Source of the DNA: an uncultured Sulfitobacter sp.
GTDB taxonomy: Bacteria > Pseudomonadota > Alphaproteobacteria > Rhodobacterales > Rhodobacteraceae
Assembly (NCBI GenBank): GCA_905182645.1
Contig: CAJJCJ010000005.1
Coordinates: forward strand, 1-64,000
Direction: 5' to 3'
Length of the DNA stretch: 64,000 nucleotides
Shown here: positions 39,133 to 57,649 of the stretch, in pieces
Position numbering within the stretch: the stretch's first letter is position 1
Layout of the letters: each line of letters opens with the position of its first letter
Made by a program: the position numbers and the translations under genes
The notes under the pieces: model-generated
The model's database searches: none
What the model was told of the DNA's origin: nothing
What the model saw: the letters and a program-made list of their open reading frames with translations, nothing else

Positions 39133-40434
39133 TTATTGGTAACGATTGATCAAATTCTCCAAACGCTCTTGGCGGCCTGATTTCGGGGAAGGGTTTATGT
39201 TTTCACTCTGAACACGGGCTGCGATCGAAGTAAGGTCAGAAGTCATAAGCGACAAACCTTGTGGTGCATCCCATCCCGCATAGCGCGCGTCGCGCGCCGC
39301 TTCTAACTTTCCGTCTTCCAGCATAGCCACCGCGGCCTTAAGTCCAGCAGCGCAGGCGTCCATCCCACCAACATGCGCAAGAATGAGGTCCTCTGGATCA
39401 AGCGACTGGCGGCGCAACTTCGCATCGAAATTAGTTCCGCCCGTTTTGAAGCCACCCGCACGCAGGACTTCGTAAAATGCCAAAGTCATTTCAGGAACGT
39501 TGTTTGGGAACTGATCCGTATCCCAACCGGACTGATAGTCGTTACGGTTCATATCAATCGATCCAAAAATGCCTAATTCGCGCGCAAGCGCAAGCTCATG
39601 TTCGAATGAGTGCCCAGCCAAAATCGCGTGGCCCTGTTCAATATTGACCTGCACCTCACCCTCAAGACCAAAGTCTTTAAGGAAACCGTAAACCGTGGCC
39701 ACATCGTAGTCATACTGGTGTTTGGTCGGCTCTTGCGGCTTGGGTTCAATCAGAATTCCGCCCTTGAAGCCGATCTTGTGTTTATAATCAACGACCATCT
39801 GCAGCATCCGCCCAGCCTGTGCACGCTCACGGCCCATGTCCGTGTTAAGCAACGTCTCATAACCTTCGCGCCCACCCCAAAGTACGTAGTTCTCACCACC
39901 CAGTTTGACTGTTGCATCCATGCAGGTTTTTATAGTCGCGGCAGAAAACGCAAAGACATCTGGATCAGGGTTTGTGGCAGCACCAGACATGAACCTGCGG
40001 TGCGAGAACAGATTGGCAGTGCCCCATAGGAGTTTGACGCCCGTCTCGTCCATCTTGCCTGCAAAGTAATCCACTATCTCTTCTAAGTTACGCGTGTTGG
40101 TCGCAAAGTCATTCCCCTCTGGGCGGACGTCCGCATCATGGAAACAAAAATAGGGCACGTTCAGGATTTGAAACATCTCGAAGGCGACGTCGGCTTTCAG
40201 CTTGGCGGCTTCCATCGAATCTCCAAACCAAGGCCGGTCCAAGGTACGCCCACCGAACGGGTCGCCGCCTTCCCAAGCAAACGAATGCCAATAGGCGGCA
40301 GCGAAACGCAAGTGATCCTTCATCGGTTTGCCCATAACGATTTCGTCAGGGTTATAATGTCGAAAGGCAAAGTCATTGTCGGACGCCGGACCTTCATACT
40401 TGATTTGCTGTATGCCTTTGAAAAAACCTGTCAT
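39133..40434 (-). CDS. xylA: xylose isomerase
   Basis: Converts D-xylose to D-xylulose in the cytosol, 433 aa, normal length for the long bacterial type. Metal and substrate motifs are [30 protein letters not shown] and [14 protein letters not shown] (metal-binding Glu and Lys). It is the last gene of the xylFHGBA operon and its ATG overlaps the xylB stop (ATGA). Its 3' end sits beside the IS6 remnant; no terminator remains between them. Confidence 0.96.
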
Positions 40435-41870
40435 GTCAGTCCTTTGAGCGCGCTATAGCTGGCGCGGTAACGTGAATGAGCGTCCAAAAACGCTGATGTC
40501 TGGGATGTGTCGGGTTCAATCACCTTTGCGATTTTGGGGCGTGTTGCTATCTCAGCGCCTGCACCGGTTGCTGCCATCATCCCCAAACGGGCCGCCCCAA
40601 ATGCACCGCCAAAGTCACCCACAACAGGAATTTCGATGGGCATATCCAACGCAGTCGAAATGGCTTGAACCCAGTAGTTTGATTTCGTGCCACCACCGAC
40701 ACCGATCAGGCGATTGATCTGCGTGCCTGTCGCGGTCAATGCATGAAAGTTGTCAACGAAAGCATGTGTCACACCTTCAAGAACGGCGCGTGTTAATGCG
40801 ACCGTATCATCGCCATGATCGAGGTGCAGGAATGCACTGCGAATATCGGCATCATTATGCGGTGTCCGCTCCCCTCCCAAATAGGGCAGAAACAATGCAC
40901 GTGACGGGGCCTGAACAGGACCAAGGGATGCGGTCAGTGTCGCAACATCCTGACCGATCCGCGCGGCATACCAATTTAGCGCGTCGCCGGCGGCCAAGAT
41001 GACACCCATATGGTGCCATGTGTCTGGCAAAGCATGGCAAAAACTATGCACCGCGCTGGCCGCATCTGGTTGATAGGCATCCGAGGCGGCAAAAAGGACG
41101 CCAGAGGTGCCCAAAGACACAAAGGCATCGCCGCTCTTCACCACGCCAACACCCACGGCGCTGGAAGCGTTATCCCCACCACCACCGGCAACGACCACAC
41201 CCTTGGGCAGGCCCCAGCGTGCAGCGAGGCTGTCGCGCAGGGTCGCAGATGGCTCTGAGCCTTCGACCAATCGCGGCATATGGCTGCGGGTCAATCCTGT
41301 CTTCTCAAGAAGTTCATCTGACCAATCACGCTTGCCCGTATCCAGCCAACTGGTGCCTGCAGCATCCGACATCTCGGACACCGCCTCACCCGTAAGCCAC
41401 AGACGCAAATAATCTTTTGGAAGCAGGACCTTGTCTACTTTGGCAAAGAGCGCTGGCTGTTGGCTGGCGAACCAAGCTACTTTTGGCGCGGTGAAACCAG
41501 CGAATACGATATTCCCCGTTACCTCGCGGAACATCGGATCGGCATCCATTGCGGCGGCTTGTTGAGATGCGCGGGTGTCGTTCCAAAGCATACAAGGCGC
41601 CAAGGGATCGCCAGCCGCATCAATCATCGTGGCTCCGTGCATTTGCCCAGACAGGCCAATTCCGCGCACTCCGTCCAATGCGGTTTTTGCGGACAAGGCT
41701 GACATGACGTTTTCAGCCGCTGTGACCCAATCGGCAGGGTCCTGCTCGGACCAACCTACCTGGGGGCGAGTGCTCGTTAAGGAGTCATGCGCCTCTGCCA
41801 TTATGCTTTGTTGATCATCAATCAAGACGGCCTTCAGGCCCGAAGTTCCAAGATCTAAGCCAATATAAAT
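40431..41870 (-). CDS. xylB: xylulokinase with an apparent ATT start codon
   Basis: Phosphorylates D-xylulose, 479 aa. FGGY-kinase motifs are [12 protein letters not shown] at the very N-terminus, GLSGQMHG near residue 75 and a C-terminal [11 protein letters not shown]. The first usable ATG (41825) would remove the nucleotide-binding YIGLDLGTS segment. In-frame codons before it read GTA ATT TAT ATT GGC, with no ATG, GTG or TTG. The ATT at 41870-41868 overlaps the stop of xylG (TA-ATT) exactly where a TAATG coupling would be expected, with AAAGGCGGG upstream. Confidence 0.88.
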
Positions 41871-42634
41871 TACGTGCCCGCCTTTGGGTTTTTGCCCATG
41901 ATGATCATCGAAAGGATGTCATCCTCAGTCACGTCTTCAACACGCTCATTACCGATCAATTTGCCGTTTTTCATCACGGCAACACGGTCACAAAGGTCCA
42001 TCATTTCGCGGGTGTCATGACTGATGAGAAAAATGCCAAGACCTTGATTTTTGAGCTCCTTAATCAGCGATGCAACCATTTCGGTTTCATGCACACCCAA
42101 TGCGGCAGTCGGTTCATCCATGATCAAGATGCGCGCGTTAAAATATACAGCTCGTGCAATAGCCACTGATTGACGTTGACCGCCCGACAGAGCCGACACC
42201 GGCTCTTTGAACTTTTTGAAGTTCGGGTTCAGCCGCGCCATGATTTTGCGCGTCTCTGCTTCCATCTGACCATCGTCCAGAAAGCCAAGCTTGGTTGTGA
42301 TTTCGCGTCCCAAAAACAGGTTACTGGCTGCATCCAGATTGTCGGCCAACGCCAGCGTTTGGTAGATCGTCTCAATATTAAGATCACGGCTGTCACGCGG
42401 GCTGTTGATCGCGGCCTTTTGACCATCAACATAAAAGTCACCACTGTCAGCCTGATAAGCCCCCGACAAACATTTGATCAGAGTCGATTTCCCCGCGCCG
42501 TTATGCCCCAAAAGACCAACAACTTCACCCGGGTACAAATCAAGCGAAACGCTGTCAACGGCGCGAATACCACCAAACGAAATCGAGATATCGCGCATTT
42601 CAACAAGCGGGGTTCCTGTACGTTCATTAGACAT
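41870..42634 (-). CDS. xylG: D-xylose ABC transporter ATP-binding protein (single-domain)
   Basis: 254-aa ATPase with Walker A GHNGAGKST, signature LSGGQRQSV and Walker B ILIMDEPTAAL. Unlike the two-domain E. coli XylG it has only one ABC domain and would act as a dimer, as in many alphaproteobacterial sugar importers. It sits between the permease (10-base gap) and xylB, whose start overlaps its stop codon. Confidence 0.9.
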   Translation of the reverse strand: MSNERTGTPLVEMRDISISFGGIRAVDSVSLDLYPGEVVGLLGHNGAGKSTLIKCLSGAYQADSGDFYVDGQKAAINSPRDSRDLNIETIYQTLALADNLDAASNLFLGREITTKLGFLDDGQMEAETRKIMARLNPNFKKFKEPVSALSGGQRQSVAIARAVYFNARILIMDEPTAALGVHETEMVASLIKELKNQGLGIFLISHDTREMMDLCDRVAVMKNGKLIGNERVEDVTEDDILSMIIMGKNPKAGT

Positions 42635-42644
42635 TGTTCAGCCC

Positions 42645-43955
42645 CTATTTCGCGTTTTTACGGTAAAGATTGTCGAGATAAACAGCAAAGACCAGAACAG
42701 ATCCCACCACGATTTGTTGGATAGACGTATCAAAGCCGATGAGGACCATGCCCGACTGCAACGACTGCATGACCAAGGCACCAAGAATTGCGCCATAGAT
42801 CGTACCAATACCACCAGCCAATGATGTCCCGCCGATCACGGCCGCTGCAATCACGTACAGTTCGTCGAGAAGCCCAAGCGCGTTGGTCGCAGAATTCAGA
42901 CGCGCCGATGCCACAACGCCAGCCAGACCTGCAAGCGCACCCATCAGCGCAAAAATCTTAAGCGTCATCCATTTGACGTTGATGCCCGCAAGCTCTGCAG
43001 CCTCGGGGTTGCCACCGATGGCAAACACATTTCGGCCAAAACGGGTGCGGTTCACAAGAACCGTCATCAAAATACCAACTGTCACTAAAATCAACACAGG
43101 GATTGCAAAACCGTGGCTGATAAAAATACCCTCGGCTGGTACAATAATGTCATTAGCGGCAGCGTATTGTTTGACGATGCCCTTGGGCCATGGATATGAA
43201 TTTACCAGCAACACGGAGCCAAGGACCATCGAACATGATAACCCACCAACCGTCACCTCACCCCACATTGGGCGCGTTGGAAAGCCATGCGCGATCCGCT
43301 TGCCACGTCCATTGATCAACATATAGACGATAACGATACAGGCAAGAACTCCAACAATCCAGCTGCCTGTGGCGCCGATTGTCCCATAGGGACCACCGCC
43401 CAGCAGCTTAAAGTTATCATCAAGTGGGGAAATCGTTTTGCCGTTGTTGGCCAAAAAAGCTGTCCCACGCCAGACCAGCAAACCACCCAGGGTCACGATA
43501 AATGCAGGGATACCACGATAAGCAATCAACCAGCCATGAAACATACCAATGCCTGTACCGATTAAGATCCCACAGATCGCGGTGACAACCCACATCATCG
43601 GATGTCCAAGTCCAAGGTATTGCGGGAAGATATCAACCTGCAAAATCCCCATCGTCATGCCGGTCACACCCACAAGCGCGCCAACTGACAAATCAATATT
43701 TCGACTCACAATAACCAACACCATGCCTGTTGCCATGATACCGATCGACGATGTCTGCACCGAAAGGTTCCAAAGGTTTCGGGGCGTCAACATCGCGCCA
43801 AACCCTTTAAAAATCAGCCCGTAGAAGTGAAAACCAAGCCAAATCAGCGCAAGTGCGCCGAACATGCCCAGAAGACGCGAGTCAATTTCGGTCCCGTTCA
43901 AAAACTTGCGGAACAAGTTCGGAGTGTCAGGCTTCGTTTCGGGTGAATCTGTCAT
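42645..43955 (-). CDS. xylH: D-xylose ABC transporter permease
   Basis: Inner-membrane permease of 436 aa with about ten hydrophobic segments. Family landmarks are RNIDLSVGALVGVTGM and NPEAAELAGINVKWMTL, and the C-terminal GGTSLAGGIGTIYGAILGAL. The length, greater than typical RbsC-type permeases, matches XylH. It is encoded between the binding protein and the ATPase. Confidence 0.93.
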   Translation of the reverse strand: MTDSPETKPDTPNLFRKFLNGTEIDSRLLGMFGALALIWLGFHFYGLIFKGFGAMLTPRNLWNLSVQTSSIGIMATGMVLVIVSRNIDLSVGALVGVTGMTMGILQVDIFPQYLGLGHPMMWVVTAICGILIGTGIGMFHGWLIAYRGIPAFIVTLGGLLVWRGTAFLANNGKTISPLDDNFKLLGGGPYGTIGATGSWIVGVLACIVIVYMLINGRGKRIAHGFPTRPMWGEVTVGGLSCSMVLGSVLLVNSYPWPKGIVKQYAAANDIIVPAEGIFISHGFAIPVLILVTVGILMTVLVNRTRFGRNVFAIGGNPEAAELAGINVKWMTLKIFALMGALAGLAGVVASARLNSATNALGLLDELYVIAAAVIGGTSLAGGIGTIYGAILGALVMQSLQSGMVLIGFDTSIQQIVVGSVLVFAVYLDNLYRKNAK

Positions 43956-44065
43956 TGATATTTTTATCCCTGGATCCAGCGAAGGCTACAGTGCCTCAAC
44001 GCTTGGGTGGCCTTTGTTGAAGGTCCGCTGTGGACATGCCGCTTATTGTTCATAAATAATGGAGT

Positions 44066-44093
44066 GTGCCGCGACCAATGAGGACCGCGGCAC
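44066..44093 (-). terminator. intercistronic hairpin after xylF
   Basis: A perfect 8-bp stem GTGCCGCG/CGCGGCAC with a 12-base loop lies 11 bases beyond the xylF stop and well before xylH. There is no T-tract, so an mRNA-stabilising or attenuating role is more likely than full termination. Confidence 0.65.
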
Positions 44094-44104
44094 CGTTATT
44101 TGGC

Positions 44105-45130
44105 TTACATGCAGCCGTCAACACCGTCCATTGCGCCTTCACAGGCTTGCTCTTTGGAGATGTGACCCGCATCGATCGCAACGCTCAGGTTGGCAATTGT
44201 CAGCGGTGTTGGGTCCAGCAGGATGGAAGGCACAGCTGTGCCCTTTTCGCCACCAGTGAACATGCTTGCACCTTCAATGTCAGCCATTGCTGTGCCAGCT
44301 GCCAATGCAGATGCGATTTCGCCAGCTGCAGTGCCAAGGTTTGTTGCGTTTTTCCAAACGGATACTGTCTGCGAACCACGTGCAACGCGGTTAATCGCAG
44401 CCAAGTCACCATCTTGACCACCAACCGGGATCACAAGACCCTGAGCGGACAATGCAGCAACAACGCCACCAGCCATGCCGTCGTTCTGGGACAGAACAGC
44501 ATCAATGTTGTTGTCGTTAGCAGTCAGGATTTGCTCCATGTTCTTCTGCGCATTCTCTGGCTTCCAGCTGTCAGAGAAGTTTTCGCCAGCAATCACGATG
44601 TCGCCGGAATCAACTGCGCCACCAATTACTTCCATCATACCTTGCAGCAAGAAACCTGCATTCGGATCGCCTGGGTCACCTTTGATGATCGCGTAGTTGC
44701 CTGTTGGCTGAACAGCCAGAACTGATTGTGCGATGATGCGGCCCACGCCAACATTGTCGAATGTCAGATAGAACGTGCGGTCATCTTCGATCAGACGGTC
44801 ATAGCCAATCATTGGGATGCCTTCATTGGCGGCTGCGTCGACGGCAGGCCCAATAGCGTCCTTGTCCCAAGCATTGATGATCAGCGCATCAACGCCTTGG
44901 GTCATCAGAGCCTCAATGTCGGTCAGTTGCTTGGCAGAAGACGACTGCGCATCGGCGGACACATATGTGTTGCCGTTTGCTTCAATGGCCGCAACTATCG
45001 CTGCTTCATCAGTTTTCCAACGCTCTTCCTGAAAGCTGGCCCAAGATACGCCGATAAGCAGACCTTCGGCATATGCTGCTGAACTAAAGCCAACTGTTGC
45101 GACAATAGCCGCTGTCAAAATATTTTTCAT
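44105..45130 (-). CDS. xylF: D-xylose ABC transporter substrate-binding protein
   Basis: Periplasmic type I binding protein, 341 aa. The signal peptide is MKNILTAAIVATVGFSSAAYA|EG, followed by IGVSWASFQEERWKTDEAA and a typical ribose/xylose-binding fold, with AIGPAVDAAANEGIPMIGYDR in the hinge region. I start at ATG 45130, which has GGAGGAC upstream; the longer frame to 45169 runs through this ribosome binding site. It is the first gene of the xyl operon and divergent from the ROK regulator. Confidence 0.93.
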   Translation of the reverse strand: MKNILTAAIVATVGFSSAAYAEGLLIGVSWASFQEERWKTDEAAIVAAIEANGNTYVSADAQSSSAKQLTDIEALMTQGVDALIINAWDKDAIGPAVDAAANEGIPMIGYDRLIEDDRTFYLTFDNVGVGRIIAQSVLAVQPTGNYAIIKGDPGDPNAGFLLQGMMEVIGGAVDSGDIVIAGENFSDSWKPENAQKNMEQILTANDNNIDAVLSQNDGMAGGVVAALSAQGLVIPVGGQDGDLAAINRVARGSQTVSVWKNATNLGTAAGEIASALAAGTAMADIEGASMFTGGEKGTAVPSILLDPTPLTIANLSVAIDAGHISKEQACEGAMDGVDGCM

Positions 45131-45224
45131 GTTGTCCTCCCAGACAATTTTAGAGCGACATTCTCTCATGCCGCCGTTCTTAGAGCCTTAATACAAATAG
45201 AAACTGGTTGAGATGTCAAAATAA

Positions 45225-45345: not shown

Positions 45346-46605
45346 ATGTCCGAATCAAAATCGACTTTATACGATGTGGGCGACGGCATGGCTGGATGCG
45401 GACCGATCTTTCCAGAAGGCGGTTTTGAAAAAAATTCCCTGAGAAAACAAGTTTTTGAGCACGTGCGTGGAAACGGAAGCGTCGCGCGCAGTGACATTGC
45501 GCGTGCGCTGTCAATTAGCGCCGGATCGGTTACAGGAATAGCAGCCGAGCTGATTGCCGCAGGCCTTATTCAAGAAATTGAGGACCCAGATCGGGAAATT
45601 ACGGTCCGAGGCCGCCCGCCTGTCGCCCTTGCGATCGTGCCAGACAGTTTTCATGTAATTGGCATCCACCTTGCGAACGAACGGCATTCCGCAATCCTCA
45701 CTGATTCTATCGGGACTGTTCTGGCTGAAACAACCCACAGCGCCTGCGCTCCCAAACGCCCCGTGTCAGACCTTATCGACGAAATCATACTTTTGGTTAC
45801 CGACCTGTTAAAAATTGCGGGAATGGCTTTAAACCAAATTTCAGCGATCGGGATCGGCATTGCTGGCCTGGTCGACCACACGACCGGCACAGTGGCTTGG
45901 TCGCCGCTTTTGTCCGAGGCAAACGTTAAGCTAGCGGGCACCATTGAGGCGCGAACGGGGACGCCTGTGTTCATCGACAATGACGCCAATATCGTCACCT
46001 TGGCTGAACTTTGGTTTGGCGGCGGGCGCACAAATTCCAATTTTGCAGTAATGACTGTCGAACATGGGGTGGGGATGGGGCTCGTTCTGAACAATCGCCT
46101 GTTTCGGGGGGCACGCGGCATGGGGCTCGAGCTTGGTCATACCAAAGTGCAAATTGGTGGCGCACTCTGCCGCTGTGGCCAGCGTGGTTGTCTCGAAGCT
46201 TATCTCGCCGACTATGCGCTTATCAAAGAAGCAGCGTCTGCCCTTGATCTAACCGCCATTGGAACGGAAAAAAACACAATGGAACGCCTGTCGGCAGCAT
46301 CAAAATCCGGTGATCCGGCCGCTCAGGCCATATTCGAAAATGCAGCAAAATATCTGATTTTAGGGCTCGCAAATATTGTACAGCTTTTTGACCCCGGCCT
46401 GATCATCGTGTCAGGAGGGCATATACGCTATGATAACCTCGATAATATTGATCTGGGCGCCGAGGCGCACAAGCTGACCTTGAACAGCAACATTAATGCT
46501 TGCGAGGTTGCGTTGCATGCTTGGGATGGATTGGTCTGGGCCCGCGGCGCAAGTGCACTAGCGTTAAGTGCTGCTACAGATTATTTCACCCGAGAAAGCC
46601 GATAA
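45346..46605 (+). CDS. xylR: ROK family transcriptional regulator (xylose repressor type)
   Basis: 419-aa regulator. An N-terminal helix-turn-helix (SDIARALSISAGSVTGIAAELIAAGLI) is followed by a ROK sugar-binding domain with IGIGIAGLVDH, the DNDAN motif and the zinc-type motif CRCGQRGCLEAYL. It is divergent from xylF, so it most likely represses the xyl operon and is relieved by xylose. Its stop overlaps the start of the next gene (TAATG), an odd coupling with an unrelated secreted protein. Confidence 0.9.
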   Translation: MSESKSTLYDVGDGMAGCGPIFPEGGFEKNSLRKQVFEHVRGNGSVARSDIARALSISAGSVTGIAAELIAAGLIQEIEDPDREITVRGRPPVALAIVPDSFHVIGIHLANERHSAILTDSIGTVLAETTHSACAPKRPVSDLIDEIILLVTDLLKIAGMALNQISAIGIGIAGLVDHTTGTVAWSPLLSEANVKLAGTIEARTGTPVFIDNDANIVTLAELWFGGGRTNSNFAVMTVEHGVGMGLVLNNRLFRGARGMGLELGHTKVQIGGALCRCGQRGCLEAYLADYALIKEAASALDLTAIGTEKNTMERLSAASKSGDPAAQAIFENAAKYLILGLANIVQLFDPGLIIVSGGHIRYDNLDNIDLGAEAHKLTLNSNINACEVALHAWDGLVWARGASALALSAATDYFTRESR

Positions 46606-48086
46606 TGAAAACCAAGATTAAAACCATCATGCTCAGTGTGCTCTGTTTTGTTGGCACTGCTGCTTTTGCGGATATAAAATTCGTCGATCGGGCAAATGGT
46701 TTGCCCATGCACGTCTATGATGGTGGATGGGAACATTTTGTGGGCGGCGGCGTTGCGGTATTTGATTGTAACAATGATCAGCAGCCCGACATATTTGCGG
46801 CCGGTGGCGAAAACCCTGCCGTCTTGCTGGAAAATCAAGGTGGTTTTGCCTTCGCCAAAACGCCACTTATTCCGATGCTTGGCACTACTGGTGCCTATCC
46901 GATGGACATCGATGGCGATGGTTGGACAGATTTGTACGTCATGCGTGTGGGGCCAGACATTGCTCTCAAGGGTGGTCCTAATTGCACGTTCACAAACGCA
47001 ACAAACCAATGGGGCATTGCGCAAACCGACCAGTGGACCACAGCGTTGACGGCATGGTGGGAAGATGACGCGCGCCCAGTCATCGCGCTTGGGCATTACG
47101 TGGACCGCAAGGACAAGAGCGGACCATTTGGGGCATGTGATACCAACACCATTTTGCGCCCCACCCAAACCGGCTACGCGGGGGAAACCCTTGCGCCTGG
47201 CCATTGTGCGCTGTCGATGCTTGCGGGGCCAAATGCAAGCGGGCGCAACACCCTGCGCATTTCAAATGACAGGCACTATTATCTCAGAGATGGCCAAGAA
47301 CAGCTGTGGGACATCAAAGAGCGGCGGTTCTTGGGCGAAGCAGACGGTTGGCCAAAGCTGATGCTTTGGGGAATGGGCATCGCGAGCGCTGATCTGACAG
47401 GAGATGGGCGCGACGAGGTGATGTTGACCTCCATGGGAGACCAGCTCTTACAAATTGCTAATGCCGACGGAAGCTATTCTGCCGCATCCTTTAACATCGG
47501 CACCTATGCACATCGGCCGCACTTGGGCGACGACGGGCGACCATCCACAGGCTGGCACGCGGAGTTTGGGGATGTGAACAACGATGGCTTGCTCGACCTG
47601 TTCATCGCAAAAGGCAATGTTGATCAGATGTCGAGTAATGCGATGCAAGATCCAAACAATCTTTTGATACAGAATAATGTGGGTTCGTTTGACGAGGTCT
47701 CGGTCTCTGCTGGTATTGCGGACATGGCGCGATCTCGCGGCGCAGCCTTCGCTGACTTTAATGGCGACGGACGGTTAGACTTGGTGGTTGTGAACCGCCG
47801 CGCACCGCTGCGCGTTTATCAAAATACCAGCATAACGGACAATTGGATCAGCGTGACACTTTCGCAAGACGAAGGCAATCGTGCGGCGATCGGAGCGACA
47901 GTCAAGGTGAATGGTCAAACGCAGCACAGGCGCATCGGTGGCGGACATGCCGGCGGCAGTCTTGTGCCACTACATTTCGGTTTAGGTGGCGAAAAGGAGG
48001 CTAGCATCATGGTTACATGGCCCGATGGCACAACCCAGAAAGCCAATGTAGATGTTAACCAGATCGTGACTATACGGAAAAACTAG
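46605..48086 (+). CDS. secreted FG-GAP/ASPIC-UnbV (CRTAC1-type) protein
   Basis: 493-aa exported protein with a signal peptide (cleavage after AAFA near residue 19). It has beta-propeller FG-GAP/VCBS repeats marked by calcium-binding DxDxDG-like loops (MDIDGDGWTDLY, GDVNNDGLLDLF, ADFNGDGRLDLVVV). A C-terminal ASPIC/UnbV domain covers roughly the last 90 residues (IGATVKVNG, MVTWPDGTTQ). Function unknown. Its start overlaps the xylR stop, and its last four bases overlap the convergent di-heme enzyme gene. Confidence 0.87.
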   Translation: MKTKIKTIMLSVLCFVGTAAFADIKFVDRANGLPMHVYDGGWEHFVGGGVAVFDCNNDQQPDIFAAGGENPAVLLENQGGFAFAKTPLIPMLGTTGAYPMDIDGDGWTDLYVMRVGPDIALKGGPNCTFTNATNQWGIAQTDQWTTALTAWWEDDARPVIALGHYVDRKDKSGPFGACDTNTILRPTQTGYAGETLAPGHCALSMLAGPNASGRNTLRISNDRHYYLRDGQEQLWDIKERRFLGEADGWPKLMLWGMGIASADLTGDGRDEVMLTSMGDQLLQIANADGSYSAASFNIGTYAHRPHLGDDGRPSTGWHAEFGDVNNDGLLDLFIAKGNVDQMSSNAMQDPNNLLIQNNVGSFDEVSVSAGIADMARSRGAAFADFNGDGRLDLVVVNRRAPLRVYQNTSITDNWISVTLSQDEGNRAAIGATVKVNGQTQHRRIGGGHAGGSLVPLHFGLGGEKEASIMVTWPDGTTQKANVDVNQIVTIRKN

Positions 48087-49399
48087 CGCTGCACCAAAAG
48101 ACCGCTTGGGACAGACGCCGGCACGCCCAAACGACCGGCCATGGCGGCCGTATCGGTTAAACTGTCCAGAAACGCCAAGAGTGTTGCAATCTGTGCCTCG
48201 TCCAACGCAATTGGTGGCGTGTAAACCGCCGCTGCTATCGCCGCCAGGTCCGCTTCATCGGCCATCGCGCGAAGATCATCGACATCAAATTTGGGTAGCA
48301 CCACTTGGGTCACATCATACGTTCCAAGTGCGGCCACTGGATCAAGGTGGCTACGGACAAACGCCTCTAACGTGGCAAATGTCCCCGCATGGCCATAGGG
48401 GGCGCTCATTGCCACATTTCGCAAAGATGGTGTCCGAAATTTATAAGCATCGATTGGGTTGCCTGTGACACGAAACCGCCCTTCGTCACGTGCATGGCTT
48501 TCAAACCGCGCCGCTTTGCCCGGCCCAATCTGCGGCGTGGCCATGGCGTGAAAGTCATGATCCGTTTGGAATGGTCCACTGTGGCATCCCGAGCACCCTG
48601 CTTCACCGTAAAATAGCTCAGCACCTAAGGTTGCTGTTTCTGAGAGGACGGTTTCGCCGCGCAGAAAACTGTCAAACGGTGCGGTGTCAGACCTCCACTC
48701 AAACTCCATGAATGCAGCGACAGCATTTGAGATATCCGTGAAGCTAATTTGGTTTGCACGGTCAACATGCGGATAGATCGCCGTGAAACTATCCACGTAA
48801 GCTTCAATGCCTGCAACACGACGCGCAAGAATGTCCCAAGCGCCGCTTTCTCCGGTGATCAAGCCTTGTCTGACGGCCTTTGAGACGTCGTTTTCACTGT
48901 AGTGGCCCGCCATTTCATCAGGGCTTAGTACTGGAAACATGGTTTGCGCCGACAAGAGGGATGCGAACCCTGCGGTCATGTCGTCATCAAGTGGCGTCCT
49001 CAGCCCACTTGGACGTGTGGGATCAATACCAATGCGCCCATCATGAAAAAGAACCGTAAATTCGCGCGCACCAAGATTGAACAATGCGGGAGAGTTTCGA
49101 GGAACGCGTTGTTCTGGCATGTTATCTGGATCGGTTGTACGCTTGGGGCCCAAGCCAACCCCACCGTCTCCAAGTCCAAGCGACAATCCATCAGACGTCC
49201 CATGGCGCGGGTGGTGGCAAGTGGCGCAGGCGACTTCTTTATTCCCTGACAGCAAAGGGTCATAAAACAACAACTGGCCCAGTGCAGCCTCGGCAAAATC
49301 TACGTGGCGATAGTCTGCATCAACCACAGGGGCGGGCAATTCATTCGCCATAGCGAAGCAAGGCATAATTGCCATCAAATAGATAATGAAACGATACAT
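48083..49399 (-). CDS. MauG/cytochrome c peroxidase-like di-heme protein
   Basis: 438-aa periplasmic protein with a signal peptide (MYRFIIYLMAIMPCFAMA) and two c-type heme motifs, CATCH (about residue 58) and CSGCH (about residue 273). The surrounding features LLFYDPLLSGN, RNSPALFN and RTPSLRNVAMSAPYGHAG are those of the bacterial peroxidase/MauG family. Members either reduce peroxide or oxidise a partner protein's residues. The convergent, end-overlapping CRTAC1-type gene is a possible partner. Confidence 0.9.
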   Translation of the reverse strand: MYRFIIYLMAIMPCFAMANELPAPVVDADYRHVDFAEAALGQLLFYDPLLSGNKEVACATCHHPRHGTSDGLSLGLGDGGVGLGPKRTTDPDNMPEQRVPRNSPALFNLGAREFTVLFHDGRIGIDPTRPSGLRTPLDDDMTAGFASLLSAQTMFPVLSPDEMAGHYSENDVSKAVRQGLITGESGAWDILARRVAGIEAYVDSFTAIYPHVDRANQISFTDISNAVAAFMEFEWRSDTAPFDSFLRGETVLSETATLGAELFYGEAGCSGCHSGPFQTDHDFHAMATPQIGPGKAARFESHARDEGRFRVTGNPIDAYKFRTPSLRNVAMSAPYGHAGTFATLEAFVRSHLDPVAALGTYDVTQVVLPKFDVDDLRAMADEADLAAIAAAVYTPPIALDEAQIATLLAFLDSLTDTAAMAGRLGVPASVPSGLLVQR

Positions 49400-50583: not shown

Positions 50584-51606
50584 TCAGATTTTGGCGCAAG
50601 AACCGCGTATAATCAACTCTGGTTCGCAATGTGTGCCAGTTACAATTTCGTCCGGCTTCACGATTGCATTGGCCAGCGCGATCGCCGCATTTTGACCAAT
50701 GCGTTTGGCAGGTAGGCGTACCGTTGTCAGTGCAGGTTCAATGTCAGACGACCCCTTAAAGTCGCCGATCCCAGCAATCGAAATATCGTTGGGAACCGAT
50801 AGCCCTGCGGCGGTGGCACCATAAAGCGCGCCTGTCGCAAGGATGTCGTTCCCGCATATTATGGCAGTCGGTTTTTGCGCTGCTTTGAGTAGATCTTGAG
50901 TGTCCCGTTTGGATGTCGAAATACTATAGACCGTTGTAAGCTGCCAATGCTCTGGGACTATGACCCCAGCAGCGTTCAGCGTTTTGATGACCGATGATCG
51001 TCTTCCCTCAGCGCGATCATTGCCAGTCGTTGGTGGAAACATATACGCGATATCACGGTGCCCCAATGACAGAATGTGTTCTGCGATCAGCTTGCCAGCC
51101 AATGCGTTGTCGGCCCCTATGCTGGGATACCGAGATGTTTCAGCATAATTCCACATCAGAACCGACGGGATGTTTTGGCTATCGATAAGCTGAAAAATGG
51201 CTTCATCATGTTCAAGTCCGGTAAGAACAACGCCGTCAACGCGATGTTCCAATAACTTTCGCAGGTTCGCATATTCGCGTTTCTGATCGTAGCCATAAGA
51301 CGCCAACAGGATCGTGAATCCGTGTTCGGCAACGGTGTCAGAAAACGCTTGTACGACTTCGGCAAATATTGCGTGATCCAAAGTTGGGACCAAAACGCCG
51401 ATGGTGCCGCTGCGAATTCCGTGGATGGTTTGGGCGGCCCTATTGCGGATGTACCCTTGATTGCGCACGGCGGACTCAATCTTGCGACGGGTCGCAAGTT
51501 TCACCAAATTGGGGTGATTAAAGTAACGCGACACTGTTGATGCAGATACCTTTACGGCCTTTGCAACACTGACTATATCCACTTTTTTCTGTTTTTTACC
51601 AGACAT
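50584..51606 (-). CDS. LacI family transcriptional regulator
   Basis: 340-aa repressor with an N-terminal LacI helix-turn-helix (VSVAKAVKVSASTVSRYFNHPNLV) and a periplasmic-binding-protein-like effector domain (TIGVLVPTLDHAIFAEVVQA, and AIICGNDILATGALYGA). It is divergent from the TctA gene by 100 bases and is the obvious regulator of the transporter-sauST operon. Known sulfoacetate operons use other regulator families, so this is a different control arrangement. Confidence 0.92.
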   Translation of the reverse strand: MSGKKQKKVDIVSVAKAVKVSASTVSRYFNHPNLVKLATRRKIESAVRNQGYIRNRAAQTIHGIRSGTIGVLVPTLDHAIFAEVVQAFSDTVAEHGFTILLASYGYDQKREYANLRKLLEHRVDGVVLTGLEHDEAIFQLIDSQNIPSVLMWNYAETSRYPSIGADNALAGKLIAEHILSLGHRDIAYMFPPTTGNDRAEGRRSSVIKTLNAAGVIVPEHWQLTTVYSISTSKRDTQDLLKAAQKPTAIICGNDILATGALYGATAAGLSVPNDISIAGIGDFKGSSDIEPALTTVRLPAKRIGQNAAIALANAIVKPDEIVTGTHCEPELIIRGSCAKI

Positions 51607-51631
51607 TTATCACCAAAAATACATGAATTTA

Positions 51632-51657
51632 TGAAAACATTTGCAAAACTATTTTCA
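51632..51657. promoter_or_regulatory. candidate LacI-family operator
   Basis: The 8-base palindrome TTTGCAAA (51640-51647) lies between TGAAAA (51632-51637) and TTTTCA (51652-51657), giving a nested, nearly symmetric site in the 100-base region shared by the LacI-type gene and the TctA gene. LacI-family operators usually have a central CG or GC step, as here. Confidence 0.5.
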
Positions 51658-51706
51658 TTGTTTAGCTTAATATGTCAACCGCACCAATACTGGGAGGCAA
51701 CGGCGC

Positions 51707-53218
51707 GTGGAATTTCTGTTCTATATGGATGAAGTGTTTGCCCCGATGAATTTCGGCCTTTTGCTGTTGGGTACAATTGGTGGGCTGATCCTTGGGGCGA
51801 CGCCCGGATTGTCACCCACGATGGCGGTCGCATTGTTGATCCCGTTCACGTTTAAGCTTGAACCACAGCAAGGCCTGATCTTGCTTGGTGCCGCCTATAC
51901 GTCGACGGTCGCGGGGGGTGCTGTCAGCGCGATCCTTTTGAAAATTCCGGGTGCGCCTGCCAATATCGCGACCACACTTGATGGGCACGCAATGGCGCTT
52001 AAGGGCGAGGGTGCAAAGGCGCTCCAACTGTCGTTTATTTCCTCGGCGATTGGTGGAGTGTTCGGTGTTCTTCTGCTCATCTTTTTAACACCTGTGCTGG
52101 CGCAATGGGCGCTGTCATTTGGTCCGTCGCATTTGTTTTGGCTGGCGATCCTTGGCGTGACCGTGATCGGCACGCTGGATTCCAGTTCTGTTGTAAAGGG
52201 CTTGCTGTCGGGCTGTATCGGGCTTTGGCTTGCGACGATTGGCTTTGACGACATCATGGGTGCGCAGCGGTTTATTTTTCATTCATCTGTCAGCGGCGGG
52301 ATCAATGTGATCCCTGCGTTGATTGGCCTATTCGCGATCCCGCAAGTGATCGCGATGTTTGCCAAGGGGCGGCAGTCAAATGATGCAGAGGTAATCGTCG
52401 TTCAAAAGCATGCTGTCAGCGAAGCATTCCGTGAAGTGATCAAGCGCAAAAAAGCGCTAACAATTGGCACGCTGATCGGGTCCATCATCGGGCTAATCCC
52501 CGGTGTTGGTGGTCAAATCGCAGGGCTGGTCGCCTATGATCAATCCAAGAAATTCAGTTCTGAAAGCGAAAAGTTCGGCACGGGCCACAGCGAAGGCGTG
52601 ATTGCCGCAGAAGCCGCCAATAACGCGATGGTTGGACCGTCATTGGTGCCACTGCTCACCCTGTCAATTCCTGGGTCACCGACGGCTGCGGTGTTGCTCG
52701 GCGGGTTGTTGATCCACGGTATTTTCCCCGGACCGGACCTGTTCATCAATTACCCAAAGGTCGCTTGGACGTTCATCGATTCCATGCTGATTGGTCAGAT
52801 TTTGATGTGCGTCTTTGGATTGTATGTGGCTGGGTTAGCCGCAAGCGTTGCACGCGTTCCGCAATCCGTTATGGCGGCAGTCGTGTTGGGACTGGCTGTG
52901 TTCGGCAGCTATTCAGTCCAAAACACAATGGGCGACGTTTACGTAATGGGCGCGCTTGGCCTGTCGATGTATTTCCTCGAACGGTTCGGGTTTTCCGCTG
53001 CACCTTTGGTCCTTGGATTGATCCTTGGTCCAATCGCGGAAGCGAATTTCATCCAAGGGTCGATGATCGCAAATGCGACCGTTGGAACCGGCACCTATTT
53101 CTTCACAGGTTGGCTCAATTGGTTGTTGATCGTGATCGTCGTGGCATCGGTCGGCTATTCGGTTTGGATGGAAGTCCGCAATCGTCGCTACACCTCTAAA
53201 GAGGAGATTTTGTCATGA
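51707..53218 (+). CDS. tctA: tripartite tricarboxylate transporter large permease TctA
   Basis: 503-aa inner-membrane protein of the TTT family with about ten or more hydrophobic segments. It has the family signatures GLILGATPGLSPTMAVALLIPFTF near residues 25-50 and GLIPGVGGQIAGLVAYDQSKKFS near residues 264-286. It starts at GTG 51707 after a GGGAGG site. With TctB and TctC it imports organic anions using an ion gradient. Linkage to sauST-like genes suggests the cargo is sulfoacetate or a related acid. Confidence 0.93.
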   Translation: MEFLFYMDEVFAPMNFGLLLLGTIGGLILGATPGLSPTMAVALLIPFTFKLEPQQGLILLGAAYTSTVAGGAVSAILLKIPGAPANIATTLDGHAMALKGEGAKALQLSFISSAIGGVFGVLLLIFLTPVLAQWALSFGPSHLFWLAILGVTVIGTLDSSSVVKGLLSGCIGLWLATIGFDDIMGAQRFIFHSSVSGGINVIPALIGLFAIPQVIAMFAKGRQSNDAEVIVVQKHAVSEAFREVIKRKKALTIGTLIGSIIGLIPGVGGQIAGLVAYDQSKKFSSESEKFGTGHSEGVIAAEAANNAMVGPSLVPLLTLSIPGSPTAAVLLGGLLIHGIFPGPDLFINYPKVAWTFIDSMLIGQILMCVFGLYVAGLAASVARVPQSVMAAVVLGLAVFGSYSVQNTMGDVYVMGALGLSMYFLERFGFSAAPLVLGLILGPIAEANFIQGSMIANATVGTGTYFFTGWLNWLLIVIVVASVGYSVWMEVRNRRYTSKEEILS

Positions 53219-53679
53219 GCGATCTGCCCCGCAACCAGCACATTATCGCCTCGGGTGTCATTGCGACCATCGGCCTAACGGTGGCCTATATCAGCTTTAC
53301 ACAAGAACCCGCTGCGGCATTCCTGTTCCCGCGCCTGATCTCATCTGTTTTTGCGGTGCTGGCAATCTGGACATTCCTAAAGGCCGTGTTGGGTCGCACC
53401 AAAGTTGGCAATGGGCTGAGTGGCGAGGCGATGAAAAACCTCGCTCCGGGCCTGATTGTCATGGTGATTTACGTCTTTTGGGCGGCCAAGGGCCTTGGGT
53501 TCTATACGGCCACAGCTATCGCTTTTTTCATTCTGTTGTCTCTGTACGATCCCGCCCCACACGGCGAGATCAAAAGCTGGGGCAAGAGGGTGCTGATTAC
53601 CGCCGGATTCATGGTGGTTATTTACGGTCTCTTTGCGCAATTGCTTTACGTATTCACACCGCGAGAGATATTTTTCTGA
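53215..53679 (+). CDS. tctB: tripartite tricarboxylate transporter small permease TctB
   Basis: 154-aa membrane protein with four predicted hydrophobic segments, the standard TctB layout: IIASGVIATIGLTVAYISF, FPRLISSVFAVLAIWTFL, an LAPGLIVMVIYVFWAA segment and a C-terminal VLITAGFMVVIYGLFAQLLYVF. Its ATG overlaps the tctA stop by four bases (ATGA). The partner of TctA in the transport complex. Confidence 0.9.
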   Translation: MSDLPRNQHIIASGVIATIGLTVAYISFTQEPAAAFLFPRLISSVFAVLAIWTFLKAVLGRTKVGNGLSGEAMKNLAPGLIVMVIYVFWAAKGLGFYTATAIAFFILLSLYDPAPHGEIKSWGKRVLITAGFMVVIYGLFAQLLYVFTPREIFF

Positions 53680-53717
53680 ACCGCAGCAGCGGCAGAACCA
53701 ACAAGGGAGAGAGAAAC

Positions 53718-54686
53718 ATGAAGAAATTTATTGCAGGGGCCGCCATCGCGTTGGTCGCAATGACAACAAGTGCCGCAGCGGAAGGACACGGAGATTTTCC
53801 TGAACGTCCGGTTATGCTGATGGTCAGCTACGGCGCTGGTGGTGCGACTGATTTTCAGGCACGTATCGTGACCATGACGGCTGGCAATGACGACGCACTT
53901 GGCATGCCAGTTGCGATTATCAACAAGCCAGGCGCTGGTGGCCGTGTTGGTTGGAACTGGCTTGCAACCCAAGCTGACGCCGATGGCTACACGCTTGGTG
54001 CATATAACGTGCCGCACTTTATCGCACAGTCGATCAAAGGTGGCGTTGAGTATAGCACCGATAGCTTCGAGCCGATCGCAAACTGGGGCGCTGATCCAGC
54101 TGTATTCGTCGTTGGCGCGGACAGTGACTTTAACTCCATGGCGGACGTTATTGCCTATGCAACTGCCAACCCAGGTGGCCTGACGTTCTCTGGCGCCGGT
54201 CTGTTTGTTGGGCACCACATCGCCGCACTTCAGCTTGAAAAAGCTGCCGGTGTTAAGCTGGCGTATATCCCGAATAAATCTGGCGGATCTGGTGCAATGC
54301 GCGCCGTGATCGCAGGTGAAGTTCTGGGCGGCGTGAACAACCTGTCGGATGCGTTCCGCGCACGTGAAGCAGGCACCGTCAAAATCCTTGGTGTGTTCGA
54401 CACTGCGCGCAACAGTTTCATGGAAGATGTGCCAACAATGGCCGAGCAGGGCTATGACATCGACAATGCATCGGTGAACTTTCGTGGCGTGATGGTGCCA
54501 AAAGGCACGCCACAGTCTGTGATTGATCATCTTGCAGCCACAGTGCCTGCGATGTTTGAAAACTCGCGCGTTGCAAGCCGTATGAAAGCGGGTGGCTCGC
54601 CAATGAACATCATGAACCGTGATGAAGTTCTGGAAATGTGGGCTGCGCGTCAGATCACACTAGAAGCGCTTCTTTCAGGCCTCTAA
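53718..54686 (+). CDS. tctC: tripartite tricarboxylate transporter substrate-binding protein TctC
   Basis: 322-aa periplasmic binding protein of the Bug/TctC family. The signal peptide is MKKFIAGAAIALVAMTTSAAA, followed by FPERPVMLMVSYGAGGATD and the beta-clip motifs INKPGAGGRVGWN and TFSGAGLFVGHHIAALQLE. ATG 53718 is preceded by AGGGAGAG; the longer frame upstream overlaps tctB. It determines what the transporter carries, and belongs to the same operon as the dehydrogenase and ligase. Confidence 0.93.
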   Translation: MKKFIAGAAIALVAMTTSAAAEGHGDFPERPVMLMVSYGAGGATDFQARIVTMTAGNDDALGMPVAIINKPGAGGRVGWNWLATQADADGYTLGAYNVPHFIAQSIKGGVEYSTDSFEPIANWGADPAVFVVGADSDFNSMADVIAYATANPGGLTFSGAGLFVGHHIAALQLEKAAGVKLAYIPNKSGGSGAMRAVIAGEVLGGVNNLSDAFRAREAGTVKILGVFDTARNSFMEDVPTMAEQGYDIDNASVNFRGVMVPKGTPQSVIDHLAATVPAMFENSRVASRMKAGGSPMNIMNRDEVLEMWAARQITLEALLSGL

Positions 54687-54695
54687 ACGCGCTAA

Positions 54696-54722
54696 GCGGG
54701 GCGTATCATGTGTGCGCCCCGC
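54696..54722 (+). terminator. intercistronic hairpin after tctC
   Basis: A perfect 8-bp stem GCGGGGCG/CGCCCCGC with an 11-base loop lies nine bases after the tctC stop, before the dehydrogenase gene. No T-tract follows. It probably raises tctC message stability relative to the distal genes. Confidence 0.65.
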
Positions 54723-54746
54723 ACCATCCTACAGAGGAATTTTTTC

Positions 54747-56150
54747 ATGAGCACCGATGATCCCATTGCCGAAGTTGAAGCCACGGTTGCGCGGGCGCGC
54801 GCCGCGCAGCAAGCATTCGAGGCCGGTGGATCACAGCTGCTTTATGACCGTGCCGCGCAGGCAGTGGCTTGGGCCATTATGGAACCGGACCATAACCGTA
54901 TCCTTGCCGAGTTGGCCGTGGAAACGACGGGCCTTGGCAATGTGCCGGACAAAATAACAAAAAATCACCGCAAAACGCTGGGCCTGATGCGCGATATCCA
55001 GCATGTCCCGACTTACGGTGTGATCAAGGACGATGCGGACACTGGTATCACTGAAATTGCCCGCCCAATTGGTGTGATTGGCGCGGTTGTTCCATCAACT
55101 AACCCGGGTGCGACGCCTGCCAACAACATCATCAACGCGCTGAAATGTGGCAACTCCATTGTAGTGTCCCCATCACCCAAAGGTGTGCCGACATGCGAGG
55201 CGCTTTTAGGATACATCTATGCGGAATTCGACAAGCTGGGCATCGACCGTGACCTTGTTCAAATGATCCCAGGGCGTGGGTCCAAGGAAAAGACCCAGCG
55301 ATTGCTTGAGGTGTCTGATCTGATTGTTGTGACTGGCAGCCAGAACAACGTGAAACGTGCGTATACATCTGGCACACCTGCGCTGGCCGTTGGCGCAGGC
55401 AATGTCGCTGTGATCGTTGACGAAACCGCCGATTTGACCGCTGCGGCGCAAAAGATTGCAGCGTCAAAGACATTTGACAATGCGACGTCGTGTTCATCGG
55501 AAAATGCGATTGTTGTGGTCGATGCGATCTACGATGCGTTTGTGGTTGAGATGGCGAAATCTGGCGGCGCGCTGATCACAGATGATCAGCGGATCATCGA
55601 CAAACTTTGGGTAAAAGGGCACCTGAACCCCTGCGCGATTGCCCGCAATGCAGACGAGCTGATTGCCGCCCTAGGCCTGACGGATGACGTCCCTGCTGGC
55701 ACGCAATTTATCGCGGTTGAAACCAAGGGGATTGGGCCAGATTTTCCGCTGTCGGGTGAAAAGTTAAGCCGTGTTCTGACAGTATATCGCGCAAGCAATT
55801 TTGATGATGCCGTCGAGACGACGCGCAAAATTCAACTTCATCAGGGGGCAGGACATTCCGTTGGCATCCACACCGCAGCGCAGGACCGTCCACTGACCTT
55901 GGCAAATGCCATCCCGACCAGCCGCGTGATCGTAAACCAAGCACATACCTTTGCCACTGGGGGCGCGTTCAACAATGGGATGCCGTTTTCGCTGTCGATG
56001 GGCTGCGGGTCATGGGGTGGGAACTCCATTGATGAAAACCTGCATTGGAAGCACTTTTTGCAAACCACCAAAATCGTGCGCGAAATTCCAGCGCGCGAGC
56101 CTGCGCTAAGCGATATATTCGGGGACTATTGGGCAGAGGTCGGTAAATGA
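54747..56150 (+). CDS. sauS: acylating aldehyde dehydrogenase, probable sulfoacetaldehyde dehydrogenase (SauS-like)
   Basis: 467-aa CoA-dependent aldehyde dehydrogenase. The catalytic cysteine is in NATSCSSENA and the fold motifs are VIGAVVPSTNPGATP and VGAGNVAVIVDETAD. It lacks the glutamate-loop layout of ordinary aldehyde dehydrogenases, as expected for the acylating type. SauS reduces sulfoacetyl-CoA to sulfoacetaldehyde. The pairing with an acyl-CoA ligase overlapping its stop, plus an anion transporter, is the reason for that call; a related acyl-CoA substrate cannot be ruled out. ATG 54747 follows AGAGGA. Confidence 0.75.
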   Translation: MSTDDPIAEVEATVARARAAQQAFEAGGSQLLYDRAAQAVAWAIMEPDHNRILAELAVETTGLGNVPDKITKNHRKTLGLMRDIQHVPTYGVIKDDADTGITEIARPIGVIGAVVPSTNPGATPANNIINALKCGNSIVVSPSPKGVPTCEALLGYIYAEFDKLGIDRDLVQMIPGRGSKEKTQRLLEVSDLIVVTGSQNNVKRAYTSGTPALAVGAGNVAVIVDETADLTAAAQKIAASKTFDNATSCSSENAIVVVDAIYDAFVVEMAKSGGALITDDQRIIDKLWVKGHLNPCAIARNADELIAALGLTDDVPAGTQFIAVETKGIGPDFPLSGEKLSRVLTVYRASNFDDAVETTRKIQLHQGAGHSVGIHTAAQDRPLTLANAIPTSRVIVNQAHTFATGGAFNNGMPFSLSMGCGSWGGNSIDENLHWKHFLQTTKIVREIPAREPALSDIFGDYWAEVGK

Positions 56151-57649
56151 TTTTCACCCCCACCGTCGCGCCGCAAGGGACGGTTCGGGATTGGCTCGAT
56201 GCGCGGGCTGAAACGGACGGTATTGCATTCGTTTTCCCAGAAACAGTTGACATGCTTGAGTGGGGTCAGCTGCGAAATGAGGCCCGCCAAATGGCGCAGG
56301 GCTTGGTCGGTCTTGGGATATCCAAGGGCGATAGCGTCGCGATTATTCATCCCAATGGCCGCGATGGTGTTGTGGCGATTTATGCGACGTTCTATGGCGG
56401 GTTTCGCGCAACGATGATCAATCTTGCAGCGGGACCATCCGCGATTGCATATGCGCTTGATCATTGCGGTGCAGATTTTGCCTTTGTGCATGCATCCCAA
56501 TCAGACGCATTTCAGGCAGCTGCGCCAAGCGGGATGAGGGCTATTGTTAGCGGTGATTTGGGAACGCTTGCAGGTTTGCCCACATTGACCCCGCAAGATG
56601 ATGCATTGCTGATGTATACGTCTGGAACAACGGGCAAACCAAAGGGCGTTGTGCATAGCCATTCCAGTCTGTTGGCTGGTGGATGGACCACGGCGGTGGC
56701 GCACGCCTTATCACCCGCTGATCGCGGCATGTGTGTTTTGCCAGTCTACCACATCAATGGGCTTTGCGTTTCAATGATGGGCGCGTTGGTGTCTGGCGGG
56801 TCACTTGGGATGGTCTCGCGGTTTTCAACGAGCAAGTTTTGGGATCAGGCTGAACAGGCCAAAGTCACTTGGTTTTCGGTCGTGCCAACAATCGTCAGCC
56901 ACCTGCTCCATGGTCAAGCCGAGCCAACGACGCAAACGCGCAACCGGCTTCGGTTTGGGCGGTCGGCGTCTTCGGCGCTTGCGGTTGACACGCAAACGGG
57001 GTTCGAGCAACGGTTTGACGTGCCCATTGTGGAAACGATGGGCCTAACGGAAACCGCCGCTCAGATACTGTCAAACCCGCTGCCACCTGGTGTTCGCAAA
57101 ATCGGATCCCCTGGTATCGGGTACGGCAATGAAGTGCGCATTTTGTCTGCGGACCTGACCGAAGCGCCGCGCGGGGTTGAGGGCGAAATTGCGGTGCGTG
57201 GCCCCAATGTTATGCGTGAATACCTGCATAACCCAGATGCCACAGCGGCTACATTCACGGGCGATTGGTTGCGGTCAGGTGATTTGGGCCGAATGGATTT
57301 CGACGGGTATGTGTTTGTGACGGGCCGCCTCAAAGAGCTGATTATCAAGGGTGGAGAAAACATCGCCCCGCGTGAGATTGATGAAGTCCTTTACGGACAT
57401 CCCGACGTGGTCGAGGCCGCTGCGTTTGGGCGCCCATGCGTCAAATACGGTGAGCGGGTTGAAGCGGCTGTAAGTTTGCGGGCGGGGTCAAACGTCGTCG
57501 TGGACGATTTGATCCAGCTTTGCAGGGACCGGCTGGGTGCATTCAAAACCCCTGATAAAATCTATTTCCTGAGCGAACTGCCAAAGGGGCCGTCAGGGAA
57601 AATTCAACGCCTGAAACTAGATGAGCTGCTTTCGGAAAACATCTTGTAG
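56147..57649 (+). CDS. sauT: acyl-CoA ligase, probable sulfoacetate-CoA ligase (SauT-like)
   Basis: 500-aa AMP-forming ligase. The motifs are TSGTTGKPKGVVHSH (P-loop), MGLTETAAQI, SGDLGRMDFDGYVFVTGRLKE, and the C-terminal catalytic lysine in LPKGPSGKIQR. It would activate imported sulfoacetate to sulfoacetyl-CoA for SauS. Its ATG overlaps the dehydrogenase stop (ATGA), so the two enzymes are made together. The substrate is assigned from context only. Confidence 0.75.
   Translation: MIFTPTVAPQGTVRDWLDARAETDGIAFVFPETVDMLEWGQLRNEARQMAQGLVGLGISKGDSVAIIHPNGRDGVVAIYATFYGGFRATMINLAAGPSAIAYALDHCGADFAFVHASQSDAFQAAAPSGMRAIVSGDLGTLAGLPTLTPQDDALLMYTSGTTGKPKGVVHSHSSLLAGGWTTAVAHALSPADRGMCVLPVYHINGLCVSMMGALVSGGSLGMVSRFSTSKFWDQAEQAKVTWFSVVPTIVSHLLHGQAEPTTQTRNRLRFGRSASSALAVDTQTGFEQRFDVPIVETMGLTETAAQILSNPLPPGVRKIGSPGIGYGNEVRILSADLTEAPRGVEGEIAVRGPNVMREYLHNPDATAATFTGDWLRSGDLGRMDFDGYVFVTGRLKELIIKGGENIAPREIDEVLYGHPDVVEAAAFGRPCVKYGERVEAAVSLRAGSNVVVDDLIQLCRDRLGAFKTPDKIYFLSELPKGPSGKIQRLKLDELLSENIL

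Follow-up and report, generated by a model that had tools for sequence, protein, structure and literature searches.

Which substrate is served by a gene block that joins a tripartite importer to two enzymes acting through coenzyme A (CoA), and how is it controlled? The block lies at positions 50584–57649 of the window, which is the whole analysed stretch of 64,000 nucleotides from an uncultured Sulfitobacter sp. (contig CAJJCJ010000005.1, assembly GCA_905182645.1). It comprises six genes, all intact open frames, with a LacI-family regulator gene (lacI) divergent from tctA-tctB-tctC-sauS-sauT and a gap of 100 bases between lacI and tctA. This layout had already been reported in a preliminary description of the DNA, which read it as a sulfoacetate operon with an importer of the tripartite tricarboxylate transporter (TTT) family and LacI control. 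The gene families could be confirmed, as Pfam cut-offs were passed for the LacI helix-turn-helix and periplasmic-binding-like domains, TctA, TctB, TctC, Aldedh, and AMP-binding with its C-terminal domain. As judged from its genes, the operon very probably serves the utilisation of sulfoacetate, from import to sulfoacetaldehyde. Several lines of evidence support this reading, TTT importer and LacI control included: a curated protein model for the dehydrogenase SauS, the SauS tree, the neighbours of SauS relatives, a cluster with xsc, pta-like, and soe-like genes in the same genome, and a shared operator.

The gene sauS (54747–56150, forward strand, ATG at 54747) encodes a predicted CoA-acylating sulfoacetaldehyde dehydrogenase. 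It reached 667 bits with the NCBIfam model of this enzyme (NF047625, cut-off 600), whereas the AdhE model gave 332 bits (cut-off 951) and the EutH_ACDH model 262 bits (cut-off 620). Twelve proteins of the same genome matched the SauS model, and the one from the window alone lay over the cut-off. From eight relatives that were scored, six exceeded it with 676–813 bits (loci L035, L045, L063, L064, L066, and L067), and those from Shinella (L068, 511 bits) and Nocardioides (L070, 542 bits) fell below; at these two loci, no sau or xsc gene was found within the annotated stretch. A tree of 81 dehydrogenases placed the window protein within a group of 70 rows with a support of 100/97, in the presence of long outgroup branches and a warning by the tool. 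This group took in every row that has Xsc, SauCD, or Soe nearby or a neighbouring SauT match of 40% or more; EutE, AdhE, and SucD remained outside, as did eight rows from other contexts. Rows from Caballeronia and Paraburkholderia, where sauST lies with an MFS carrier, were sister to 54 rows including the window (100/99). The phylogeny that had been proposed earlier for the dehydrogenase thus groups it with sau- and xsc-linked relatives.

Further downstream, sauT (56147–57649, forward strand; AMP-binding 234 bits) encodes a putative AMP-forming sulfoacetate-CoA ligase, and the ATGA overlap with sauS noticed previously is real (56147–56150). The ligase is 40% identical to those of the Caballeronia and Paraburkholderia sauST-MFS clusters. 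In a tree of 33 ligases out of 33 hand-picked loci, 26 rows of the sauT type, those from Burkholderiales among them, formed a group at 93/95 (drawn open) to which five further AMP ligases encoded in this genome did not belong; the outgroup branches are very long. The importer genes, all on the forward strand, are tctA for the large membrane subunit (51707–53218, GTG start, Pfam TctA 450 bits), tctB for the small membrane subunit (53215–53679, TctB 51 bits, likewise overlapping tctA by ATGA), and tctC for the periplasmic binding protein (53718–54686, TctC 124 bits, signal-peptide-like start by eye). All three TTT components are therefore present, each above its Pfam cut-off.

Relatives were collected by scanning a collection of named genomes, which gave 41 loci with SauS at 60–86% identity and is biased to close relatives because the search patterns were derived from this SauS. 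The complete set lacI, tctA, tctB, tctC, sauS, and sauT was found in unchanged order at 36 of the 41 loci, so that the arrangement is not a matter of chance. Cultured bacteria with the block include Roseovarius nubinhibens ISM (L037) and Octadecabacter ascidiaceicola (L022). At one of the 36 (L032, 5543–7043), the sauT match consists of two overlapping pieces in different frames, which points to a disrupted gene or an assembly error. Two of the remaining five are cut by contig ends (L024 and L040) and three differ. L035 carries soeABC-like genes, a carrier read as SLC13-type, sauST, and GntR; L045 carries tctB, tctA, a hydroxyacyl-CoA-dehydrogenase-like gene, sauS, a CoA-transferase pair, xsc, a gene read as YeiH-type, and a pta-like gene; and L055 carries lacI and sauST with another TTT clade, the TctC proteins of the two clades being about 30% identical. 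Plasmids showed additional combinations: TTT genes, sauS, sauCD, soeABC-like genes, and xsc together in Azospirillum and Indioceanicola, this lacI with sauST, an MFS carrier, and xsc close by in Paracoccus, sauS, sauCD, xsc, and an MFS carrier in Rhodococcus, and IclR, sauST, and MFS in Caballeronia (L064). SauS is constant while the carrier (TTT, MFS, or SLC13-like) and the activating enzyme (SauT, SauCD, or CoA-transferase) are swapped, and xsc recurs.

Three loci were noted in addition. In the Thalassospiraceae metagenome-assembled genome of L045 (2272–10282), SauS (696 bits) lies with a type I CoA-transferase pair, xsc, YeiH-like, and pta-like genes, no match to SauT or SauCD was found at this locus, and CoA transfer may serve to activate sulfoacetate. 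A haloarchaeal plasmid from Haloterrigena (L067:4931–10559) combines TTT genes, SauS (676 bits), and a CoA-transferase near the formyl-CoA and mesaconate types (none over cut-off), making archaeal use of sulfoacetate possible. At L107 (G137:C53:71000–90000), SauS adjoins SoeAB-like genes, and queries for SauT, SauCD, and CoA-transferase were unmatched nearby.

The substrate of Xsc is sulfoacetaldehyde, and the gene is absent from the window, as stated before. It was found elsewhere in the same genome (2.67 Mb, 84% complete) at G000:C4:171812–173545 with 888 bits (cut-off 676). The cluster around it (L079:2900–17769) contains, in this order, class III aminotransferase, decarboxylase, and MocR-type regulator genes, xsc, a TauE/SafE gene, phosphotransacetylase (PTA)-family and acetate-kinase-family genes, a second TauE/SafE gene, and genes for a molybdopterin oxidoreductase whose other subunits are of iron-sulfur and DmsC type (soeABC-like). 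The soeABC-like large subunit shares 62% identity with its counterpart near sauST in Tritonibacter multivorans. PTA and acetate kinase lie slightly under their NCBIfam cut-offs and were assigned by Pfam and similarity. All parts of the Xsc route are therefore encoded in this genome, namely xsc, a phosphotransacetylase-type gene, and a sulfite outlet, those beyond xsc on the grounds of Pfam and similarity. The cluster is perhaps a taurine/hypotaurine module shared with sulfoacetate. A role of its MocR-type gene in the control of sulfonate genes is a guess only, because the protein passes the NCBIfam cut-off for PdxR (344 vs 320 bits).

The two TauE/SafE genes beside xsc also provide candidates for the sulfite exporter whose search in the genome had been suggested. 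Since they and the soeABC-like genes adjoin xsc, sulfite is plausibly exported or oxidised there, without need of the sox genes that follow the operon (soxX and soxY lie within the window and soxC shortly past its end). The earlier view that the sox location fits the oxidation of sulfite found little support. SoxY and SoxC queries matched none of 75 other loci within fetched flanks of very unequal length, and sox adjacency was dropped as functional evidence. Such neighbours are weak evidence, as they are not conserved beside the block; a likelier route for sulfite is offered by the soeABC-like and TauE/SafE genes.

The gene families, their order, the operator, and the presence of the downstream genes are read directly from the DNA, and the ligand of TctC, the effector of LacI, repression, and the direction of flux are inferred. 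TctC would capture periplasmic sulfoacetate for import by TctAB. SauT would then convert sulfoacetate, ATP, and CoA to sulfoacetyl-CoA, which SauS would reduce to sulfoacetaldehyde at the expense of NAD(P)H. Xsc, whose gene lies outside the window, would cleave this into sulfite and acetyl phosphate, acetyl-CoA would be formed by a Pta-type enzyme, and sulfite would be oxidised by a SoeABC-type dehydrogenase or exported by TauE/SafE proteins. In the absence of substrate, LacI bound to a 28-bp operator overlapping the -35 box would repress tctABC-sauST and probably lacI too, and a pathway metabolite, probably sulfoacetate or sulfoacetyl-CoA, would release it.

The regulator gene lacI (50584–51606, reverse strand) encodes a proposed repressor with an N-terminal LacI helix-turn-helix (Pfam LacI 43.6 bits) and a periplasmic-binding-like domain (Peripla_BP_3 100.7 bits), which place it in the LacI family; among NCBIfam models, no cut-off was passed. 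The operator ATGAAAACATTTGCAAAACTATTTTCAT lies at 51631–51658 (forward strand), with inverted outer arms ATGAAAA/TTTTCAT and an inner half-site TTTGCA. It was surveyed at 78 loci (the window, L017–L071, L103–L122, L132, and L133), of which 49 have a homologue of this LacI (E up to 1e-40). At all 49, a 28-bp element with at most six differences from it was found within 200 bases upstream of lacI, although 49 overstates the number of independent loci because several are near-duplicates (e.g., L061, L132, and L133). Among 980 mononucleotide shuffles of the lacI upstream regions, none came nearer than 10 differences, and 20 of the 28 columns are identical in at least 48 loci. A palindromic site predicted to serve as operator of the controlled promoter, as for a LacI-family repressor, is therefore present at every locus with this lacI. 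A -10-like TANNNT stands at a fixed distance from the operator at 44 of the 49 loci, so that TTGCAW within the operator falls where a -35 box would lie. In the window, the proposed promoter (51641–51668, forward strand, by consensus only) consists of -35 TTGCAA within the operator, a 16-bp spacer, and -10 TAGCTT. Repression through promoter blocking is thus suggested by the sequence. Like operators of PurR/CcpA-type members of the LacI family, the element has a 16-bp pseudo-palindrome as its core, ATGAAAACRTTTGCAW, with CR at its centre. Unlike these, it has a third half-site, TTTTCAT, six columns past TTTGCA, giving a conserved block of 28 bp.

The operator was also found where the genes under it differ. 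At five loci with sauST and lacI facing sauS (L055, L060, L061, L132, and L133), it precedes sauS. L108 and L110 have two copies each: one stands ahead of tctABC-sauS-sauCD-xsc, which is followed at a distance of about 2 kb by a pta-like gene, and the other ahead of a YeiH-like gene; at L111 the element precedes sauS-sauCD-xsc-pta. The position before tctABC-sauS-sauCD-xsc ties regulator and importer to sulfonate breakdown. A site-matrix scan of 13 of the 29 loci without this LacI, including two short contigs, gave a best score of 11.2 (L116) compared with 51.3 for the window. A dedicated LacI sulfoacetate repressor and its 28-bp three-half-site operator probably form a widespread undescribed switch that was kept through exchanges of importer (two TTT clades or MFS) and of activating enzyme (SauT or SauCD), and that in some lineages would govern everything from import to Xsc and sulfite export.

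Whole-genome co-occurrence was assessed in 99 genomes (the window's own and 98 relatives), matching the site at up to 2 mismatches. SauS over cut-off was found in 18 of them, and the operator, once each, in 16 of these 18 and in none of the 81 others. In the genome of the window, a search at up to 3 mismatches likewise gave a single site. The two exceptions are G036, which is 81% complete and in 230 contigs, and G072, with an MFS/SauCD/IclR type of locus (L106); G034 has two SauS copies and one site. The distance from the site to the SauS match behind it is about 3.1 kb in 13 genomes and 64–69 bp in three. TctC at 83% identity or more was present in 14 of the 18 SauS genomes (15 copies) and in none of the 81 others; the next best match had 35%. 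Fisher tests gave 1.4e-16 for the operator and 8e-14 for TctC, values which are too strong because the genomes are kin. Within the genus, SauS occurs in 16 of 56 genomes, a patchiness expected for an accessory trait. As a DNA marker of sulfoacetate users, the operator is short and specific.

Several points weigh against a sulfoacetate operon under a dedicated switch. The functions of the enzymes are deduced by homology, SauT passes no NCBIfam cut-off, the outgroup branches of its tree are very long, and the comparison drew on genomic relatives rather than on the characterised proteins of Cupriavidus necator and Bilophila wadsworthia. More distant SauS relatives with 37–41% identity exist and may differ in substrate. 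One of them, on a Nocardioides plasmid (L070:1528–9323; 41%, 542 bits), is preceded by a phosphosulfolactate synthase gene, a hint of a different sulfonate aldehyde or a coenzyme M context. Since 53 of the 56 genomes of the genus carry xsc (all 16 with SauS and 37 of 40 without), this gene does not discriminate between them, and its co-occurrence within the genus was dropped as evidence. The LacI proteins of L108, L110, and L111 are only 44–47% identical to that of the window, and all three loci come from one genus. At the genome's own xsc cluster (L079), the operator was not found (best score -6.9 vs 51.3 in the window), and a link of the operator to this xsc-soe cluster was dropped.

Three other readings of the operon have to be considered. 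Carboxylates are common ligands of TTT binding proteins, and the best solved-structure matches are oxalate-CoA ligases for SauT and an acylating succinate-semialdehyde dehydrogenase for SauS, as would suit import, CoA activation, and reduction to the aldehyde of a non-sulfonated C2–C4 acid such as oxalate, malonate, or succinate. Nevertheless, such a substrate is very unlikely, as SauS passes its equivalog cut-off, its relatives adjoin xsc and soeABC-like genes, and the same operator precedes an operon containing xsc. Still less probable is the import of a different sulfonate likewise needing CoA activation, e.g., 3-sulfopropionate, for which a parallel HpfX/HpfYZ pair is described in other bacteria in the parts of PMC11489063 seen; SauS relatives are repeatedly linked to xsc, which requires sulfoacetaldehyde. 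The least probable alternative is a reverse flux, in which sulfoacetaldehyde would be oxidised to sulfoacetate with a gain of ATP and the transporter would act as an exporter. TTT systems that depend on a binding protein are importers, AMP-forming ligases favour activation, and the xsc, PTA-family, and soeABC-like genes of the same genome would consume sulfoacetaldehyde. The reverse direction is nonetheless known for SqwD/SqwKL of sulfoglycolytic anaerobes, according to the sections of PMC12890257 consulted, and counts as a further point against uptake and use of sulfoacetate.

To which known systems does the operon relate? The preliminary description regarded it as a variant of the sau system with TTT uptake. 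The hybrid genes are indeed present, and the combination of sauST and TTT is already known. In the accessible portions of PMC12625764, sauST clusters with a TTT transporter are described as a hybrid type in the Arctic sponge symbionts OTU1 and OTU4, the latter from Rhodobacteraceae (Amylibacter/Halichondribacter); as in the window, sauS, sauT, and TTT genes share one cluster, and sulfoacetate use was predicted. The host differs, the word LacI occurs 0 times in the main text of that paper, and an operator is unmentioned in the portions examined. The regulator and operator seem to be the new layer. In the literature searched, no LacI-type regulator or operator for sulfoacetate genes appeared among the matches listed, which is weak evidence of absence with subscription journals poorly covered; among these matches, PMC12625764 alone contains both sulfoacetate and TTT.

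The chemistry of SauS and SauT via sulfoacetyl-CoA is shared with the sau cluster of C. necator, as given in excerpts of PMC12625764, PMC7057948, and PMC10204090. That organism uses SauST with a single-gene MFS carrier, SauU, and the regulator SauR (cited in PMC12625764), and induction of the SauR system by sulfonatoacetate was measured (PMC7057948), whereas the window has TTT genes instead of MFS and a LacI. The Caballeronia locus L064, whose sauST-MFS arrangement is similar to that of C. necator, carries an IclR gene. B. wadsworthia also pairs SauS with a putative TTT importer, SauXYZ, but has the ADP-forming SauCD in place of SauT and reduces sulfoacetaldehyde to isethionate without Xsc cleavage, according to the same partial sources (PMC12625764 and PMC12890257). 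These also name the breakdown of taurine and sulfoquinovose as sources of sulfoacetate.

Marine consumers of this compound are poorly known. A sulfoacetate-responsive LacI switch could act as a biosensor. To our knowledge, few members of the TTT family have known ligands, and TctC offers the family a candidate sulfonate ligand.

Further genes were noted in the window. It contains a gene for a di-haem MauG-like protein at 48083–49399 (reverse strand; 252 bits to a hypothetical family of His-Xaa-Ser systems, under the cut-off of 340), adjoined by a gene at 46605–48086 whose product is FG-GAP/VCBS-like by eye. A sugar cluster at 39133–45169 (reverse strand) comprises isomerase-like and kinase-like genes, an ABC ATPase, a permease, and a binding protein, and faces a ROK-type regulator at 45346, all of these names being read from the translations.

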